Positions 25,784 through 37,668 of a stretch of DNA of 64,000 nucleotides are shown here, piece by piece. Position 1 is the first letter of the stretch. Each line of letters begins with the position of its first letter. Source of the stretch: Candidatus Sumerlaeota bacterium (GTDB lineage: Bacteria; Sumerlaeota; Sumerlaeia; JAFGJS01); assembly GCA_016928995.1 (NCBI GenBank), contig JAFGJS010000137.1, positions 31,760 through 95,759 of the forward strand, read 5' to 3'. The notes under the pieces were generated by a model. It made no database searches and was not told the DNA's origin. It saw nothing but the letters and a program-made list of their open reading frames with translations. The position numbers and the translations under genes are program-made.

Positions 25784-25984
25784 AGCCGGTGCTCCCTTTG
25801 CTTTGGATTTCGTTTATAAAATCATGAGTCGTTCGTTGCGGTGGGACGCCTTGAATTTCTGATACTTATTACGTTTCTATTGTTACTGGCGGCTTATATC
25901 GCTGTCAACTCTTCTTGACAACCGGCCTGCACGGTTCGTAGGGTTCTTTTTTGTTATCAACGCTTTTCGTATGATCCGTTGATT

Positions 25985-26171
25985 GCAGCAGGTGTCTCAA
26001 ATCCCGGATGCGCGTGCTTCGGGGGGAGAGAGTAAAAGGGAAGTCCGTGTGAATCGGACGCGATCCCGTCACTGTAATTGGCGACGGCGACCCCATCACG
26101 CCACTGGCCCGGTTGGGCTGGGAAGGCGGGGAACGCCGGATGACCCATGAGCCAGGAAACCTGCCTGCTGC
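25985..26171 (+). promoter_or_regulatory. Cobalamin (adenosylcobalamin) riboswitch
   Basis: The closing stem gcagcaggt (25985-25993) pairs with acctgcctgctgc (26159-26171). Inside, the conserved pieces come in the right order: aaaagggaagtccgtgtgaa, then gatcccgtcactgtaa, then ccactgg, gctgggaaggcggg and gatgaccc, and the B12 box gagccaggaaacctgcc at 26149-26165. This is the classic family described for B12 transport and synthesis genes. It is on the plus strand, 220 bases before the start of the triple-repeat secreted protein gene, which it should repress when cobalamin is plentiful. I could not identify an unambiguous terminator or Shine-Dalgarno blocking helix. Confidence 0.92.
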
Positions 26172-26390
26172 CCGACCGTGACTCGACCTTTTTCGAGGAT
26201 GAAAAGGCGGGGCGAACCGTGGCCAGCTTAAACCGCATATTCTGTATCCCTCGCGGGCTTTTTCTTTTCGCTGTGTCATTCTGTTTAATCGCTTCCCTTT
26301 TTGCATAGGACCGTCCGGACGGTCTGAATGCTATTCCTTTGATTCGGTGAGATCCACGGCGGAATGACTCAGGCACGAGGAGATGCCGCC
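26172..26390 (+). promoter_or_regulatory. Leader between the B12 riboswitch and its gene, with a 16-base palindrome
   Basis: This stretch should hold the expression platform. A small hairpin ctcga/tcgag sits at about 26184-26199, a T-rich tract follows ctcgcggg at 26255-26270, and a perfect palindrome gaccgtccggacggtc lies at 26309-26324. GAGGAG at 26377-26382 is the ribosome site for ATG 26391. Which of these is the switch is not clear by eye. Confidence 0.45.
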
Positions 26391-27857
26391 ATGAAACGTT
26401 TGGTTTTTTCGCTCTACGCCGCGCTGGCGTTGAGCGCTGTGGGGAGCATGCAAGCCGCAACGCAAGATCCGCGTGTGGCTTTGGAAGGGAAGGTTGTCGA
26501 GTGGGCCGGGAGCGGCCCCAACACTGCATTCGTCGTGATTGATTTCGACGCTTCCACCACCGGTTCCGCCGAATTCGCCTTCGGCGTACAGTTCACCAGC
26601 CCAACGATCACCGGAATAGAGGCGCTGGAAATCCTGGCCGACGCCACGAGCGTGGAATTGACCAGCACAGTGTACAGTTTCGGAACATCAATTGACGCCA
26701 TCGAATACACCCGCGACGGCGAGACCTACTATCGCACTTACGCCTATGATTACAGCGAGTTCTGGAATTACTACGCCAGCGCGGATTCCGGCGTCACGTG
26801 GGAAATGTGCAGCATCGGCGCCTCCGACCGCATCCTGAGCGATGGCGATGTGGATGGATGGCATTATGACGCATGGGGCGCGTCGCCACCGAATGGACCG
26901 CGCGTCTTACCCGCGTCCACGCTGCCCTTGGAGCGCGAGGTGGTGGAATGGGCCGGCTGCGGCGAGCGTTCGGCGTTCGTCGTGGTCGATTTTGATTTAT
27001 CCACCACGGATTCGGTTGAGTTCGTCTTTGGCGTGAATTTCACCAGCCCGACGATCACCGGCGCCGAGGCGCTGCACATCCTGCACGCGGAAACCAGTTT
27101 GCGCGTGACAGGCACCTCTTATGGCTATGATACGTTCGTTGATTCCATCGAATACACGCACAACGGCGAAACGTACGTCAGCACAGGGACATTGGCGGAT
27201 GAGACGTACTGGGCGATCAACAACATGCGCGGAGCGGATGAGTGGGCTTATGCCAGCACCGGCATCGAGGGACGCACGTTGCATCATGGCGATGTGGATG
27301 GCTATCAATTCCTGGGGTGGTACGACTTTTCCACCGGACCGAACGGACCTGTGACCGGCGATCCGCCGCAAGACATACTTGTCACTGATGCCATCGACTG
27401 GGTGGGCGCGGGCGAGCGCGTGGGTTACGTGGTCATTGACTTCGACAAGTCCACAACCGACTCGCGCGAATTTGTGTTTGGCGTGCGTTTCGATTGTCCG
27501 ACGATCACGGGCGAGGATGCGCTGCAGTTGTTGATGGATGAAGCCGGACTGGAGATCACCAGCACGACCTATTCATTCGGCACATTCATCGACAGCGTCA
27601 CTTACGAATACGAAGGCGAGACATACACGGCGACCGGCAGCTTCGCGACATCGACGTATTGGTCGGCCTGGATTAGCCGCGATTATGGCGCGGCATGGGA
27701 TTACGGTTTGGTCGGCATCAGCGACCGGATGTTCCATCATGCGGATGTAGATGGGTATCAATTCCTGGGCTACTCCGACTTCACATCCGGTCCGAACGGT
27801 CCGCGTCAGCTGCCGCCAGTCGTAACACGAGCCAGGATCTGGCGCTGGTATGAATAG
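26391..27857 (+). CDS. Secreted protein with three tandem copies of one domain, under B12 riboswitch control
   Basis: 488 residues from ATG 26391, supported by GAGGAG 8 bases upstream and a signal peptide (MKRLVFSLYAALALSAVGSM, cleaved near QAATQ). Three repeats of about 150 residues start at Trp38, Trp187 and Trp337. Each has W(A/V)GxGxxxxFVVIDFDxSTT, FGVxFxxPTITGxxAL, a SFGTxIDS/I-EY strand, a YW motif, and ends DGDVDGW or HADVDGYQFLGY with GPNGPR. It resembles repeat domains I recall in planctomycete and verrucomicrobial surface proteins near B12 transport genes. It may capture or carry cobalamin or another corrinoid, but this is inferred only from the riboswitch. It ends with RIWRWYE. Confidence 0.85.
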   Translation: MKRLVFSLYAALALSAVGSMQAATQDPRVALEGKVVEWAGSGPNTAFVVIDFDASTTGSAEFAFGVQFTSPTITGIEALEILADATSVELTSTVYSFGTSIDAIEYTRDGETYYRTYAYDYSEFWNYYASADSGVTWEMCSIGASDRILSDGDVDGWHYDAWGASPPNGPRVLPASTLPLEREVVEWAGCGERSAFVVVDFDLSTTDSVEFVFGVNFTSPTITGAEALHILHAETSLRVTGTSYGYDTFVDSIEYTHNGETYVSTGTLADETYWAINNMRGADEWAYASTGIEGRTLHHGDVDGYQFLGWYDFSTGPNGPVTGDPPQDILVTDAIDWVGAGERVGYVVIDFDKSTTDSREFVFGVRFDCPTITGEDALQLLMDEAGLEITSTTYSFGTFIDSVTYEYEGETYTATGSFATSTYWSAWISRDYGAAWDYGLVGISDRMFHHADVDGYQFLGYSDFTSGPNGPRQLPPVVTRARIWRWYE

Positions 27858-27900
27858 CCAGCTTGAGCGAAGTGTGTTGTAAGACACGATCCTTCTTCCG

Positions 27901-27938
27901 GGCAATTGTCAATTGTCCATTGGCAATTGACAATTGTC
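27901..27938. repeat. Perfect inverted repeat, CAATTG-type
   Basis: Arms caattgtcaattg (27903-27915) and caattgacaattg (27924-27936) pair perfectly over 13 bases, with two more pairs outside, around the loop tccattgg. It is not followed by a T-run, so it is a poor terminator. A similar element is at 48648-48688. Confidence 0.75.
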
Positions 27939-27968
27939 GCGGATGAAGACTGCAAGCGAGGAGTTCAA

Positions 27969-29339
27969 ATGATGTTATATGGGAACTACAGAATGAAGCG
28001 GCAGATAATCGGTCTTGTTTTGGCGGCGCTTGCACAGTTGATGTTCTGCATGCTTTCCGCGCGTGGTGACTATGAATTCATTATGCCACAACGCCTGACT
28101 GATGCATCCGAGAATTACCAACTCTCGCGTTGCGCCAACGGCCAGTTGGGATTCGACACCAGCGGCACGCTGCACATGACCTACTGGTCCGGCGGCGCCA
28201 GCGCGTCGGAAGCCGATCCATCCTACGTTTATTATCGCTCGATGGACGCGAACGGCGAACTGAGCGTGGCGGAAAGCATTGCCGGTTCGGGCGGCGGCAC
28301 GTACATCGGCGGCCGCCAGCCGTCGCTCGCGCTCGACGCGGACGGCGGCGTGTGGATCGTCTGGCACGATCATCGCCACACGTCTTCGGCCACGGGCGAC
28401 AACAACATCAACAACATCGAAATTTACGCGGACCATAAACCAGCGGGCGGCTCGTTTCTTGCGGATGATCTGCGGTTGACGAATTCGAGCGCTTCACACT
28501 CCGGCGACAACGGCTATGCGCCGCGCATTGTTGCACATCCCTCCGGCGCGCTTAGCGTCGCGTGGTATGATTTCAATTTCAGCGCGACGGGCGAAGTATC
28601 GGATCTGTGCTTAAAGACAGGAATGGCGGCGGACGGATTCGATCTCAGCGAGACTATGAGCGAGATGCGGTTGACGAACTTCAATGATCGTGACGGCGAT
28701 CCATCGTATACCGTGCCGGATCTTTGCGTGACGCCAGACGGCTCGCGGCATCTGGTCTGGGGCAGTGATTTTCTGGCCGGTGGCGATCTGTATTACGGCG
28801 TCGCGACTTCCGGCTCCATGACCTTGAGCGAAACAGTGCTGGCAACCGGTGCGTGGGATTTTTTTGATCCGGCGCACATCGCCGCTGCGCCCAATGGCGA
28901 TGTGTGGATCGCATACGGCGATCAGACGGCCAATGGTGGAGCGGCGGAGAACGTCGTGTTGTTGCGCAAACGGGCCGGGGAGGCGTCCTTCGATCCGCCG
29001 GTCACACTGTTTGCCGCTTCCGCCCGGCAGTACGCGCCGGACATCGAGATCGACGCGGACGGCATCGCGCACGTGGTATGGATCGACCGGCGCGACGGAC
29101 GTGATGTGTATTACGCCCGGCTCGACACGGCGACGAATGAGATTCTATCGGCGCGAGCGCTGACTACCTATGACGGCAATTGGGAACGTCCTAGCATCGC
29201 GCTGGACGCCGCCGGAAGTCCGGCAGTGTTGTACGAGGAAAACATCGACCTGGATCACGGTGACATCTGGCTGGTTCGCGTCAAGGCGTCCGTCCAAATG
29301 ACCGGCGCGGATTCACGCTTATGGGAATGCTATGAATAA
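27969..29339 (+). CDS. Secreted beta-propeller (sialidase/BNR-like) protein
   Basis: 456 residues. GAGGAG at 27958-27963 favours ATG 27969 or 27972. A hydrophobic segment at about 10-30 (IIGLVLAALAQLMFCML) is the signal peptide. Propeller-type repeats are seen: QPSLALDADGGVWIVWHDHR, APRIVAHPSGALSVAWYDF, PDLCVTPDGSRHLVWGSD, AHIAAAPNGDVWIAYGDQ, PDIEIDADGIAHVVWIDRRD and RPSIALDAAGSPAVLYEE. These six Asp-box-like blades suggest a six-bladed sialidase-type fold, but no sialidase arginine triad can be assigned by eye. It ends with RLWECYE, like the ending of the preceding gene, and overlaps the next gene by 8 bases. Confidence 0.75.
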   Translation: MMLYGNYRMKRQIIGLVLAALAQLMFCMLSARGDYEFIMPQRLTDASENYQLSRCANGQLGFDTSGTLHMTYWSGGASASEADPSYVYYRSMDANGELSVAESIAGSGGGTYIGGRQPSLALDADGGVWIVWHDHRHTSSATGDNNINNIEIYADHKPAGGSFLADDLRLTNSSASHSGDNGYAPRIVAHPSGALSVAWYDFNFSATGEVSDLCLKTGMAADGFDLSETMSEMRLTNFNDRDGDPSYTVPDLCVTPDGSRHLVWGSDFLAGGDLYYGVATSGSMTLSETVLATGAWDFFDPAHIAAAPNGDVWIAYGDQTANGGAAENVVLLRKRAGEASFDPPVTLFAASARQYAPDIEIDADGIAHVVWIDRRDGRDVYYARLDTATNEILSARALTTYDGNWERPSIALDAAGSPAVLYEENIDLDHGDIWLVRVKASVQMTGADSRLWECYE

Positions 29340-30012
29340 CTCGCGCGCACATGGCTTCACTTTGCTCGAACTGCTGGTGGTCGTGCTGATCATCGGCATC
29401 CTGGCGCTGATCATTTCGTTCAACATGCGCGTGGCGGTCGAGCGCGCCTGGAAGGCGTCCGACGCGGCGAACCTGCACACGCTCGCCGCGGCTTTGCAGA
29501 CGTATTACATGGATCACGGCGAGCTGCCGCTGGGCGATCACGAAGCCGGACCGTTCATGTCGCACACGCCGGATTTCGACCAGGTGGGCAACGGTCCGGC
29601 GGGCGGCGGATCGTGGGACGGCGTGCCGTGGCTGCTGTATGAATACGGCTACGTGAGCAGCTGGACGGTTTTCTTCAACCCGAAGTATCTGCGCCGGCTG
29701 GATTGTCCACAGACGATTCGCGGCGGCTATCCGCGCTTCCATAATTTCCGCTACGCATACAACAGCGCCAACGCCTCGGCCGGGGGGCATGCGGGCGGTT
29801 CGGGCGACATCATGAGCGGCGAAACCTGGCTCTTGCGCGACATCTGGATCGGTCCGCGCGACGGTTTTTACGCCGCCAATTATCCCGGCTATCCCGCCGA
29901 CTACGAATACCCCTGGGGCGAAGGCGAATACGAAAACAAGCTCGAGCACGCCGTCTATGCCGACCTCGCCGTCCGCCTCGTCATCGGCGGCACTGACGAA
30001 CGCGTGGAGTGA
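29332..30012 (+). CDS. Type II secretion pseudopilin-like protein
   Basis: 226 residues. The N-terminus has the prepilin cleavage site G|FTLLELLVVVLIIGILALII with Glu at position 5 of the mature helix. It continues with EALxxA-type coil (WKASDAANLHTLAAALQTYY MDH), which is typical of GspG-like proteins in these phyla. The remainder is a Tyr/Gly/Trp-rich body (FHNFRYAYNSANAS, PGYPADYEYPWGEGEYENK). It overlaps the preceding gene by 8 bases, so it belongs to the riboswitch-led unit if that is one transcript. It is longer than ordinary GspG and probably not the major pseudopilin of the secretion machine. Confidence 0.85.
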   Translation: MNNSRAHGFTLLELLVVVLIIGILALIISFNMRVAVERAWKASDAANLHTLAAALQTYYMDHGELPLGDHEAGPFMSHTPDFDQVGNGPAGGGSWDGVPWLLYEYGYVSSWTVFFNPKYLRRLDCPQTIRGGYPRFHNFRYAYNSANASAGGHAGGSGDIMSGETWLLRDIWIGPRDGFYAANYPGYPADYEYPWGEGEYENKLEHAVYADLAVRLVIGGTDERVE

Positions 30013-32773: not shown

Positions 32774-35506
32774 TCAGTTGTTTTCCTTGGTTAGTTCAGC
32801 GCTGAAGATGTTGAGCGTTTCTTCAAACAGGTTTTTAAGTTTCTCGAACTGTTCGTCCAGCATTTCGATGTTTCCGCTTTTTCCTGCTTTTTCAAATTCA
32901 TAGGCAAGTTCACGGATTTGCGTGGCGCCGACGTTGCCCGATCCGCCTTTGAGCGTATGCGCGATGGCGTTCACCGCCGCGGCGTCCTTGCGTTGCAGGG
33001 CATCGTGCAATTCCTCCAGTTGTATCTGCGCCTGTTCGCGGTACAGATCAATGAGTTCCCGTTTGAATTCGGCGTCGCCATCGCAAACGGCGTCCAGGTG
33101 CTCCAGATCGATCAGCTGTTGCATGGGAAGGCCTCCTTGTGGACCGATGTTTTTCGGCGGAGCGACTTTTTTGCGCGCCCAGCGCTTGATCATCAGGCAA
33201 AGATCAACCGGCTGCACCGGCTTGCTGATGTAATCATTCATTCCCGCATTGATGCATTTTTCCCGGTCGCCTTTCATCGCGTTGGCGGTCATCGCGATGA
33301 TCGGGACATGCGGATGATCGCCTTCCAGCCAGCGGATGGCGCTTGTCGCTTCATATCCGTCGAGCACTGGCATCTGGACGTCCATCAGGATGATGTCATA
33401 GGATTTTTTCTGAGCCGCTTCGACGGCTTCGCGTCCGTTCGACACGGCGTCGGCGTGGAATCCGTATTTCGCGAGGATTTTCAGCGCGACTTTTTGATTC
33501 ACGATGTTGTCTTCAGCCAGCAAGATCTGGACGTCGCTTTCATCAGTAATCTCTTGTTCTTTGAGGCTGTGTTTCGTCACAAGCCTTGGCTGGGGCGGTT
33601 TTTCCGCTTCAGGCACATCGAGCAACACTTCCGAGAGGGCGTCGAAGAGCTGCGATTGCCGCACCGGCTTGGTGAGATAGGCGTTGCATCCGATTTTCAG
33701 AAATTTATTCGCGTCGCCGCGATGTCCGACGGAGGTGAGCAGCAGGATGCGTAAGTCATCGAACTGCTTTTGCCGGCGGATCGTACGGGCGACCGTTTCG
33801 CCGTCCATTTCGGGCATCTGATAGTCCAGCATCAGGGCGTCATAGGGCGTATTGTTGTTGATCGCCTCTGCGAGTATCTGGATGCCTGCCTCTCCGCTGT
33901 TCGTGGAATGCACTTCACAACTGTAGGCATGCAGGATTCTTTCCAGCACTCGGCAGTTGGTTTCATTGTCATCGATGACCAGAATGCGGGAACCGCGGAT
34001 GTCCTGTCTCAATTTTGTGATATTGCCGGCCGCCGCGGCGTGCTCGGCAAGCAGCGGAATTTCGAAACTGAAACGGCTGCCTTTGCCGGTTTGGCTATGT
34101 AATTCAATTCTGCCGCCCATGAGCTCGACAAGGCGTTTGGAGATGGTCAGCCCCAGGCCAGTGCCTCCGTATTTCCGGGTCGTGCTGCCGTCGGCCTGGG
34201 TGAAGCTTTCGAATATCGCATGTTGACGTTCCGGCGGGATTCCAATGCCAGTGTCTTCGACGGAGAAGCGGACATGAACGATGTTGCCGGAGTGCTTGGC
34301 GATCTCGACGCGAATGTCGATGTTGCCGTTTTCGGTGAATTTGACTGCGTTTCCGGTCAGGTTGAGCAGGATTTGACGAATGCGTTCCGGATCGCCCTGC
34401 ACGCTGATGCTCGCGCTGGGATCCACATAGCACGTCAGCTCCAGTCCTTTTTCATGCACCTTGGCAGCCATTAAATCAGCCACACTTTCGACGAGATAGC
34501 TGAGCTGGAACGGGATGCATTCTATGTCGAGCCGGCCGGATTCAATCTTGGAGAAGTCGAGGATGTCATTGATCAACGTGAGCAACGAGTTGCCGGCGCT
34601 GCGGACGGTTTCGACGGAGTCGCGCTGCTCGGCGTCCAGCTCGGTGTCGAGAAGCAGGCCGGTCATGCCGATCACGGCGTTCATCGGCGTGCGGATTTCA
34701 TGGCTCATATTCGCCAGAAACTCCGTCTTCGTGCGGGCGGCTTCCTCGGCGATGTCCTTGGCTTGGTTGAGCTCGGCATAGGATTGGGAGAGACGCTGCA
34801 TCATGTCATTGAATGATTCCGCGAGTTCTTGTATCTCGTCGTTGGTGTTGATCGACACCGTTTGCGTCAGATCGCCGATAGCGGCGTTGCGCGTCACGGT
34901 GTTGAGCTTTTGGATCGGCAGGGTGAGCCTGCGCGCCGCGACGATGGAAAGCAAGATCCCGACGATCAGGCAAAGGACCGCGGCCCAGGCAGCGCTGATG
35001 TAGATTTCCCTGAGTTCCCTATAATAGGCGTCCAGCGACAGTCCGATTTTCATCCAGCCCCATTTAATCCCGAGATAGACGAAGGGATAAGTGTAGATAT
35101 ACACTTTTGTGTTGAATGGCTCGCCTTCATGAAATTCACCGCGGTTTTCAGTATTAATGGTCGGCAATTGTCCAGATTCCAGGTCTTCCTGAATCCATCC
35201 ATCCTTCAAGTGCGTCAAGGCGAATCCGTCTTTGCGGATGATCTGCACCATGACGATATTTTCACGGCGGTTGACGACCGATTGGCAGTGATCGATCACG
35301 TTCACATAGTCTTCGGTGACCACTCCTTCGGCTGTCACTTGATCGATCGACACGGCGATGGATTGCGCGAGCGTGTCCAGGATTTCAATGACTTCATCAT
35401 GCTGGCGAATAATGAGCAGGGACACGAAAGCGAAGACCGTCACCGTCATGATGAGGATGGAAAACAGACAGATGCGGCTGAAGATGGAGTGCTTGTATCG
35501 AATCAT
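32774..35506 (-). CDS. Hybrid sensor histidine kinase with two receiver domains and an HPt domain
   Basis: 910 residues. Order: membrane helix 12-32, periplasmic part of about 130 residues, second helix near 165-190, HAMP ([20 protein letters not shown]), HisKA with His269 ([18 protein letters not shown]), ATPase domain ([31 protein letters not shown]), receiver 1 with Asp561 ([12 protein letters not shown]), receiver 2 with Asp709 ([12 protein letters not shown]) and HPt with His850 ([13 protein letters not shown]). It is the last gene of a unit with two PhnD-type binding proteins and a TolC-like lipoprotein, and its start overlaps the previous stop by 4 bases. The output response regulator is not in the window. 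Confidence 0.94.
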
Positions 35507-36522
35507 TGCATGGCGCTCAATTTAATTTTGCTGGGGCTGTCGTTGATCGCGTATCCTTTCCACAGCCAGTAATCGATTTTCTTGCCTGTGGATTGTTCGT
35601 ATTCCCGCGCCAATTCCTTCAGGTTATTGAGATAGTTGTCATTCCAAGCCTCGATTTTATTCACTCGGAACAGCGTCATGATTTGCCGGCCTTCCGGCGT
35701 GTCGCCCAGATTCATCGTCGCGTCGATAGTGGTTTTGCGTTGATCGTCCGGGATGTCGGCCAGCCGGGAAAAACCGGTTAGCCCCTCCAGCAACGGTTTC
35801 GATTCGGCCAGGATGGTCAGACGTTTTCCGATTTGAGGGTTGAGTTCATTCATCACATTATACGAAGTGCGGGACACGACGCAGGCGTCCATCTGGCCGA
35901 AAAAAACCGGCAGGATCGTTTCAGATGATTTTTGGGCGAGCTCGATCCGGCCCAGGAACTGCTCAGCCTCCGGGAGATTCTCCCGCTTGAGGATCACATC
36001 CAGCCACACCGCTCCGGCCATCCCGGCGATGCCGGTTTCAATCAGCATTCGTTTGCCCTTCAAGTTCGCCAGGCTGCTCACGCCGTTTTTTACAGATGCG
36101 AGCAGCACGTATGACATTTCCGCCGCCTCGCCGCGAACCTGGACGGCGTAAGGTTCCACGATGGAGCGATCAGGTAAGGCGACGTACTCAAGGGCGTGGA
36201 TCGTGACGGTATCGACTTTTCGATCCAGCAAGGCTTGGTAAATCTCCTGATAAGTGTGGTAGAATTTCCCTTCACTGCCGCGCCTGTCGTACTCGATGCT
36301 GGTCATCCACAGACTGATCGCCGTTTGCGCGTCTTTTAGATTCACGCCGGTGAGCTGCATGGTGGTTATCCCGTGCGGATAGGCGTTTTCACCGACATCG
36401 CTTGCCGCGGGCGATGTGAGCGTGTCATCATCGGCTGCCATGACGATACCGGCAAGCCCCATGACGCAAATGAGCGCTATGAGCCGCAGTCGTGATGACA
36501 AATGGAATCGAGTAACGCGCAT
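35503..36522 (-). CDS. PhnD/SsuA-type periplasmic binding protein (copy 1)
   Basis: 339 residues with a signal peptide ([19 protein letters not shown]). The binding-protein core shows the [22 protein letters not shown] pattern, the hinge segment [17 protein letters not shown] and the second lobe [21 protein letters not shown], as in PhnD-family phosphonate binders. No permease or ATPase gene is near. It overlaps the hybrid kinase gene by 4 bases and is a paralogue of the gene at 36658-37668, sharing [14 protein letters not shown] and LVREYE/LAREYE-type ends. A sensory role, presenting a ligand to the kinase, is inferred. Confidence 0.85.
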
Positions 36523-36657
36523 GAAGGGATGCCTTGTTATGTTGAGCCGACAGCATTCATAATTTTTAGCGAAACGGAAAATGCATTTTATATCTGCGTT
36601 TCACTTGTCTTACTGTATTTGATCGTCTTTTCCGCGCTTAACATGAAGCGGGATTCT

Positions 36658-37668
36658 TCATTTTTTTGTAACCTCTGCGTTTCGCTCAATGCTTTTTTCC
36701 AGCATCCACTGGGCGAACTTCTTGCCGGATCTTTCTTCATATTCTCGCACAAGCGCCTGCAAGTTAACCAGGTAGGATTCGTCCCATAGCGCGACTCCGC
36801 TGGATTGGAAGAGATTCATAAACTGTTCCCCTTCCGGCGAGTTTCCGATGTTGAACACCATATTTTTCAGGTCTTGAAGCTCCTCTTCGCTCCAATCAAC
36901 AAGCGTGGAATGACATGAAATCACTTCAAGGAGCGGGGGAGATTCGAGCAGGATTTTGACGCGCTTTCCAATCTGGGGATTTAATTCCTGCATGACCATG
37001 AAGGAACGTTTGGGCACGACGCATGCATCGGCTTGCTTGAAGAAAACGGGAAGGACTGCGGCGGATGGCTTTTCAACAAGCGTTGTTTCGTCGAAGAACC
37101 GGCTGGATTCCGGCAGCTTCTGGCGCATCAGGATTACTTCCAGCCATAATGAGCCAGTCAGTCCAGTGAAACCGCTTTCGAGCAGCACGGTTTTACCTTT
37201 TAAATCATTCAGGCTATTCGCGCCGCCTTTAATTGGGACTAGAACCACATAAGTCGTTTCTGGAGTTTTGTCACGGATGGTCGCACTAAACGGCTGAAGC
37301 ACGGAACGATCGGGCAGCGCCAGATACTCTATGCCCAGTATGCTGGCGCCATTAACCTCGCCCGCGCGAACAGCTTTGTAGATTTCCAGGTAATCGGAAT
37401 AGAATTTAACGCCGATGATATCTTTATGGGTTTTGCCATAAAGCGCTTTCAGCCATACTGTCGTTGCGGTTTCGGCGTCATGCACGTCGACGCCGGAGAG
37501 TTGGGTCAGCGACATTGCATGTGCGACGTTTTCCTTCTTTTTAACGTTCAAGGACGCCGTGGTTGGCGCGTCCTTGTCGGCGCCCATGATGTTGTCCGGA
37601 CATGCCGCGCAGAACAAAGCAGCCACGCATAACATAGCGCAAACTCGCCAGCTTCGTATTATATGCAT
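36658..37668 (-). CDS. PhnD/SsuA-type periplasmic binding protein (copy 2)
   Basis: 336 residues with a hydrophobic N-terminus (RVCAMLCVAALFCAAC) acting as signal peptide. It shares with copy 1 the segments LTQLSGVDVHDAETATTVWL, SILGIEYLALPDRS, NSLNDLKGKTVLLESGFTGL, QADACVVPKRSFMVMQELNP and LVREYEERSGKKFAQW. The pair probably arose by duplication. It is 30 bases after the TolC-like gene and 135 bases before copy 1. Ligand unknown; aromatic and Ser/Thr residues of the phosphonate site could not be assigned by eye. Confidence 0.85.
   Translation of the reverse strand: MHIIRSWRVCAMLCVAALFCAACPDNIMGADKDAPTTASLNVKKKENVAHAMSLTQLSGVDVHDAETATTVWLKALYGKTHKDIIGVKFYSDYLEIYKAVRAGEVNGASILGIEYLALPDRSVLQPFSATIRDKTPETTYVVLVPIKGGANSLNDLKGKTVLLESGFTGLTGSLWLEVILMRQKLPESSRFFDETTLVEKPSAAVLPVFFKQADACVVPKRSFMVMQELNPQIGKRVKILLESPPLLEVISCHSTLVDWSEEELQDLKNMVFNIGNSPEGEQFMNLFQSSGVALWDESYLVNLQALVREYEERSGKKFAQWMLEKSIERNAEVTKK

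Follow-up and report, generated by a model that had tools for sequence, protein, structure and literature searches.

A cobalamin riboswitch-led locus of class Sumerlaeia encoding tagged secreted proteins and a dedicated pseudopilin: a likely TonB-independent system for corrinoid acquisition

The sequence analysed here, referred to as the window, is a 64,000-nucleotide stretch from a Candidatus Sumerlaeota bacterium of the class Sumerlaeia. The genome to which it belongs comprises 4.55 Mb in 161 contigs and carries two cobalamin riboswitches, one of which leads the locus described below. Its features are as follows.

25973..26182, + strand: cobalamin riboswitch aptamer forming the leader of the locus (RF00174, cmscan)
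26391..27857, + strand: secreted three-repeat protein, 488 aa from ATG 26391, which is preceded by GAGGAG; signal-peptide-like N-terminus MKRLVFSLYAALALSAVGSMQA
26475..26933 (approximate limits), + strand: repeat 1, DUF4430-like/SCO2322-like domain, from the alignment of repeats and an NCBIfam match over the whole protein (NF040672, 7.8e-6)
26919..27383 (approximate limits), + strand: repeat 2, same domain as repeat 1, from the alignment of repeats and an hhalign score of 28.5 between the repeat profile and a DUF4430 lipoprotein
27369..27836 (approximate limits), + strand: repeat 3, same domain as repeats 1 and 2, from the alignment of repeats
27840..27857, + strand: C-terminal tail of the three-repeat protein, WRWYE-stop, pattern W-x-x-[YF]-[EQDR]-COOH
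27969..29339, + strand: secreted seven-bladed propeller; GAGGAG upstream of the likely start at 27969, within an ORF opening with TTG at 27906
29322..29339, + strand: C-terminal tail of the propeller, WECYE-stop, same tail pattern
29332..30012, + strand: dedicated pseudopilin, 226 aa, starting 8 bases inside the propeller gene; N_methyl (PF07963)

The riboswitch was matched to RF00174 at 115.7 bits (E 2.6e-28) across the complete model (1-189/189), well meeting the gathering score of 31.5 bits, and was the sole Rfam match in the whole window. The leader between the aptamer and the start codon measures about 208 nt. No convincing terminator was found 3' of the aptamer by a simple scan and folding, and this part of the leader folded no better than shuffled sequences (z 0.65). 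The second riboswitch of the genome (G000:C41:15633-15854 (-)) leads nrdD-nrdG (L004 5310-7511 (-)), which, read by eye, we take to be the anaerobic, B12-independent ribonucleotide reductase and its activase, a classical B12-independent substitute. In a related genome (G020), a riboswitch leads what reads as a MetE-like gene. Therefore, the riboswitches appeared to behave as a normal B12 regulon.

The ORF of the three-repeat protein spans 26364-27857, with 26391 as the likelier start, which places three Trp at residues 38, 187, and 337; the repeats were 48 to 51% identical to one another. No Pfam family matched the repeats, and DUF4430 (PF14478) was absent at E<=1 whether a single repeat or the whole protein was searched, with no repeat reaching its gathering score of 23.8 bits; the window's own genome likewise gave no DUF4430 Pfam match. 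When the three-repeat profile was aligned by hhalign with a DUF4430 lipoprotein, which in another phylum is encoded in an operon with a riboswitch, a TonB receptor, and a propeller, the score was 28.5 at a probability of only 38%; among the controls, 400 unrelated ORFs reached at most 20.4 and 200 shuffles at most 19.2. Because this score exceeded the controls but the Pfam threshold was not met, the repeats are termed DUF4430-like rather than members of the family. The motifs A-L-x-x-L, G-x-F-[VI]-[DE]-x-I, and [FY]-W are collinear and occur in the same order in DUF4430 and the window repeats, whereas the latter score below the Pfam cutoff, occur as three tandem copies, and form a longer domain with an SCO2322-like end. 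DUF4430 is the C-terminal domain of the vertebrate B12 carriers transcobalamin and intrinsic factor (PMC4350170).

The actinobacterial SCO2322 family (NCBIfam NF040672) matched the three-repeat protein at 26.3 bits (E 7.8e-6), short of its cutoff of 85, and only part of the profile was covered, along YW...G..W.Y...G...R.L.DGDVDG..F. SCO2322 is linked to cobalamin/ECF loci; no mention of it was found in the literature searched. A BLAST-type search of 60 relatives and the genome collection with the whole three-repeat protein returned no relative, while a repeat profile search returned two weak ones, in G034 and G038. The initial annotation had proposed counting homologues linked to riboswitches; the G034 relative is a single-domain protein located after a cobalamin riboswitch. 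An AF2 model of one repeat, built from three rows, was too poor to use (pLDDT 36) and was discarded.

The propeller was modeled by AF2 as seven bladed (pLDDT 83, pTM 0.88), and a fold search with the model returned generic seven-bladed matches, namely lectin, neuraminidase, and CylK propellers. BtuG was not among the displayed rows of that search, which is uninformative, and DUF5074 (the BtuG-type, DUF5074/YncE family) gave no match in the window propeller. Neither the propeller profile nor the repeat profile gave a useful match when searched against PDB sequences. Separately, a near-perfect inverted repeat (CAATTGTCAATTGTCCATTGGCAATTGACAATTG) was noted at 27904-27938, between the three-repeat and propeller genes.

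The pseudopilin has a prepilin N-terminus (GFTLLELLVVVLIIGILA) in which the cleavage/methylation motif was recognized by both PF07963 (32.5 versus 21.2 bits, E 5.7e-8) and TIGR02532 (29.3 versus 16.3 bits). Beyond this generic motif, the best-scoring named model was GspG (TIGR01710, 43.3 bits, E 3.4e-11), although the equivalog cutoff of 88.85 was not met. The protein therefore resembles GspG and competence pilins in its prepilin N-terminus and best named model but differs from them in that it has a conserved globular domain of its own, occurs as one clear copy in a genome, and is led by a riboswitch. No further secretion genes were found in the window locus. All named relatives of the pseudopilin are from Candidatus Sumerlaeota, Sumerlaeia, or BRC1.

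The initial annotation, which was made from sequence alone, proved right in all essentials of its description. It had claimed a well-formed cobalamin riboswitch, followed by a protein with three domain copies starting at Trp38, Trp187, and Trp337, a secreted propeller, and a pseudopilin overlapping the latter by 8 bases. The strong covariance-model match, the start at 26391 with its repeats, the seven-bladed model of ORF 27906-29339, and the pseudopilin coordinates of 29332-30012 against a propeller end at 29339 each upheld the respective claim. Its statement that the riboswitch is not followed by known B12 genes is right for the window locus; the same genome keeps such a set elsewhere, comprising a BtuF-like protein, an ABC ATPase, and a FecCD permease (C30, L201), where no riboswitch was found.

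To place the locus in a wider setting, cobalamin riboswitches were mapped in 60 relatives, the surrounding DNA was taken, and genes up to 8 kb downstream were clustered. The most widely shared downstream families were the pseudopilin (28 genomes), the window's propeller family (18 genomes), and a second propeller family (17 genomes), followed by a LIC_13355-like secreted family (12 genomes), a PQQ-type propeller (7 genomes), and relatives of BtuF, BtuC, and BtuD. Apart from the TonB receptors of other phyla and a kinase cluster, no other cluster was shared by more than 4 genomes. Since the other genes up to 8 kb downstream recur in only a few genomes, general synteny does not account for the association.

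Linkage was also tallied with the proteins, instead of the riboswitches, as the starting point, using whole-genome searches of the 39 Sumerlaeia members, the class to which the window genome belongs. A profile search found 18 strong members of the propeller family in 18 genomes, and each member (18/18) follows a same-strand cobalamin riboswitch at a distance of 126 to 2,496 nt. A profile of the globular domain found one clear copy of the pseudopilin in 35 of the 39 genomes, including 20 of the 20 good ones, and 27 of these 35 lie 180 to 4,015 nt downstream of a cobalamin riboswitch, in six genomes within about 330 nt of it. The chance rate of such linkage is about 0.0008 per gene; a formal probability would come out too small, the genomes being related. 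As the flanking genes differ, the linkage is evidently being maintained. For the 8 remaining pseudopilins, no riboswitch was present in the fetched contig stretch, owing partly to contig edges: that of G001 follows a truncated propeller gene at the edge of its contig, that of G024 overlaps a BtuF-like gene, and those of G011 and G002 adjoin other secreted proteins of these kinds. As a separate observation, an Acido-Lenti-1 RNA match (44.4 bits) lies beside the G001 pseudopilin gene (L164 600-646 (-)).

These data show that a riboswitch-led system is conserved in class Sumerlaeia and that the pseudopilin is its most conserved gene. The initial annotation would have been refuted by a missing covariance-model match, or by homologues with neither a link to cobalamin riboswitches or transport nor corrinoid binding; the strong match and the tight linkage did not refute it, and the conservation of the pilin-like component goes beyond what it could have claimed.

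Genes of known B12 transport type were found in the same loci of relatives, another link the annotation had proposed to look for. BtuF/ABC/BtuC-type genes follow the pseudopilin in seven genomes, with BtuF-type genes in G035, G028, G021, G025, G015, and G007 (families confirmed for G028) and, in G030, a FecCD permease 1.8 kb beyond the pseudopilin. Outer membrane B12 uptake is known through the TonB-dependent receptor BtuB. TonB plug domains were absent from 35 of the 39 class genomes, while a FecCD permease was present in 38 and a secretin in all 39. No TonB receptor was found in the window locus or among the 52 clustered riboswitch loci of the class, many of them cut by contig ends, and one was present in five of the six clustered loci of other phyla. 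The window genome has a single TonB receptor (C24), which is not near a riboswitch and whose substrate is unknown. These absences are not absolute because the genomes are mostly draft assemblies. The secretins suggest that the class presumably has two membranes, and, with TonB receptors nearly missing and BtuC-type importers kept, another outer membrane step is to be expected.

Three further observations concern these and neighboring genes. In a genome of another phylum (G048, L068 5428-9727 (-)), a riboswitch-led operon encodes a TonB receptor, a YncE/DUF5074-like propeller, a DUF4430 lipoprotein, and a DUF6580 membrane protein, which links DUF4430 and DUF6580 to B12 uptake. Within the window, positions 32774-37668 hold a hybrid sensor kinase and, after it, a pair of secreted paralogs resembling phosphonate-type substrate-binding proteins; together they apparently form one sensing cluster. 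PADLOC gave no match.

The secreted proteins of these loci, although from unrelated families, share a C-terminal tail of about [AS]-x(1-4)-W-x-x-[YF]-[EQDR]. It was found on 55 of 59 secreted locus proteins, compared with 10 of 497 further ORFs in these loci; several of those 10 are true cases. This count is considered fair because family members were defined by homology, though they were partly noticed via the tail. No window protein other than the three-repeat protein and the propeller has it. A DNA pattern search in four genomes placed the tail on other large secreted ORFs too, with a clear excess over a reversed control in three (10 versus 2, 12 versus 1, and 6 versus 2) and no excess in the window genome (9 versus 9). 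The idea that the tail is specific to B12 loci was therefore rejected; since other secreted proteins end in it, it is a phylum-level feature. It may be an undescribed sorting or anchoring signal, as inferred from its sequence. As an aside, many large secreted proteins in G000, G004, G012, and G021 terminate in a form of about PxxAS-x(1-4)-W-x-x-[YF]-E, and example stretches with tailed proteins are L211, L212, L219, L226, L230, and L237.

For the LIC_13355-like family, found in the riboswitch loci of 12 Sumerlaeia genomes, the only PDB match at E<=1 was 7BIZ, a weak hit (E 0.096) spanning the motif SLG-GG-I...DF-V--N-F. The entry is named in the BtuH paper, in which the solved protein is the B12-binding BtuH2 (PMC8941943). 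The family could thus be a new B12-binding family, a suggestion that rests on this weak match without binding data.

Taken together, the locus is likely a B12-repressed, TonB-independent corrinoid-acquisition system that includes a dedicated pseudopilin and belongs to a kind conserved throughout Sumerlaeia. The riboswitch linkage, the conservation of the pseudopilin and propeller, the co-location with BtuF/ABC/BtuC-type genes, the absence of TonB plug domains from most genomes, and the shared tail are shown by sequence; corrinoid binding, surface location, the direction of the switch (repression by cobalamin), the function of the pseudopilin, and the outer membrane route are inferred. In the proposed mechanism, scarcity of corrinoid would lift repression by the riboswitch, and the locus would be expressed to give the C-terminally tagged secreted proteins (the triple DUF4430-like protein and the propeller) and the GspG-like pseudopilin. 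The secreted proteins would capture corrinoids at the cell surface, and the pseudopilin would become part of a machine, of the type II secretion or type IV filament kind, by which they are exported, displayed, or retracted. Corrinoid would then reach periplasmic BtuF and a BtuCD-type ABC importer without a TonB-dependent BtuB. The initial annotation's reading of surface corrinoid capture involving a pilin-like component is thus supported, with corrinoid binding and the role of the pseudopilin unproven.

The closest known counterpart is the cobamide uptake loci of Bacteroides, which encode BtuB with the BtuG propeller, BtuH, BtuJ, and BtuK (PMC6143338, PMC8941943, PMC12751083, PMC10404256), and riboswitch-controlled surface B12 capture proteins are already known from that genus (PMC6143338, PMC12751083). 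In both groups, accessory proteins that are secreted or lie at the surface, a propeller among them, are encoded behind cobalamin riboswitches and together with BtuF/BtuCD; B12 binding is known in Bacteroides and inferred in Sumerlaeia. However, the Bacteroides loci center on TonB-dependent BtuB, whereas those of Sumerlaeia lack BtuB and have a pseudopilin, and the Sumerlaeia secreted proteins, unlike those of the Bacteroides loci, bear the C-terminal W-x-x-YE tail. The literature searched contained no link of cobalamin riboswitches to pilins of this sort, nor was a riboswitch-controlled pseudopilin found there as the most constant member of a system, replacing BtuB.

Two versions of this explanation, differing in what the pseudopilin does, remain possible and are given similar weight. 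In the first, a short retractile pseudopilin filament carries corrinoid or corrinoid-loaded proteins through the secretin into the periplasm, as competence pili do with DNA. The pseudopilin's rank as the most conserved member, its closeness to the riboswitch in six genomes, the lack of a TonB plug in 35 of the 39 genomes alongside a universal secretin, and a report of type IV pili in every Sumerlaeota MAG examined (PMC8092238) favor this version. Against it, there is no evidence that pseudopilin filaments form or retract, and corrinoids are small and could pass another channel once concentrated. In the second, the pseudopilin is a B12-regulated type II secretion subunit for export of the tagged binding proteins, with corrinoid passing the outer membrane by a different route. 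This is favored by GspG being the best named model and by the tail, which the locus proteins have in common with other large secreted proteins of the phylum. On the other hand, there would be little reason for a general secretion system to have a separate pseudopilin under B12 control, and in some loci the pseudopilin comes first after the riboswitch with no tagged protein between. A bolder reading, which can be entertained only tentatively, is that Sumerlaeota replaced TonB/BtuB by a riboswitch-controlled pseudopilin filament working with secreted, W-x-x-YE-tagged corrinoid-binding proteins; the filament would then be the first of the type IV class devoted to taking up a small molecule, and its protein partners' tail would be a new sorting signal.

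It is unlikely that the riboswitch governs surface proteins unrelated to corrinoid capture, serving instead adhesion or a lifestyle change under B12 limitation. The propeller fold does resemble those of lectins and neuraminidases, and there are no binding data, but the transport-type genes in the same loci of seven relatives, the similarities to DUF4430 and BtuH2, and the missing BtuB speak against this explanation. An orphan riboswitch that lost its own gene, with the secreted genes behind it by chance, could be suspected from the leader without a convincing terminator but is all but excluded by the 18/18 and 27/35 linkage across the class with differing flanking genes.

On the preferred reading of TonB-independent corrinoid acquisition, the locus is the strongest candidate for the BtuB-independent outer membrane B12 step of the class. 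Involvement of the pseudopilin in uptake, if real, would give type IV filaments a role beyond motility, secretion, and DNA uptake. The shared tail would define an export signal for an uncultured phylum. The Sumerlaeia locus may therefore point to an undescribed way of scavenging B12, with a real chance that it represents a new kind of uptake.
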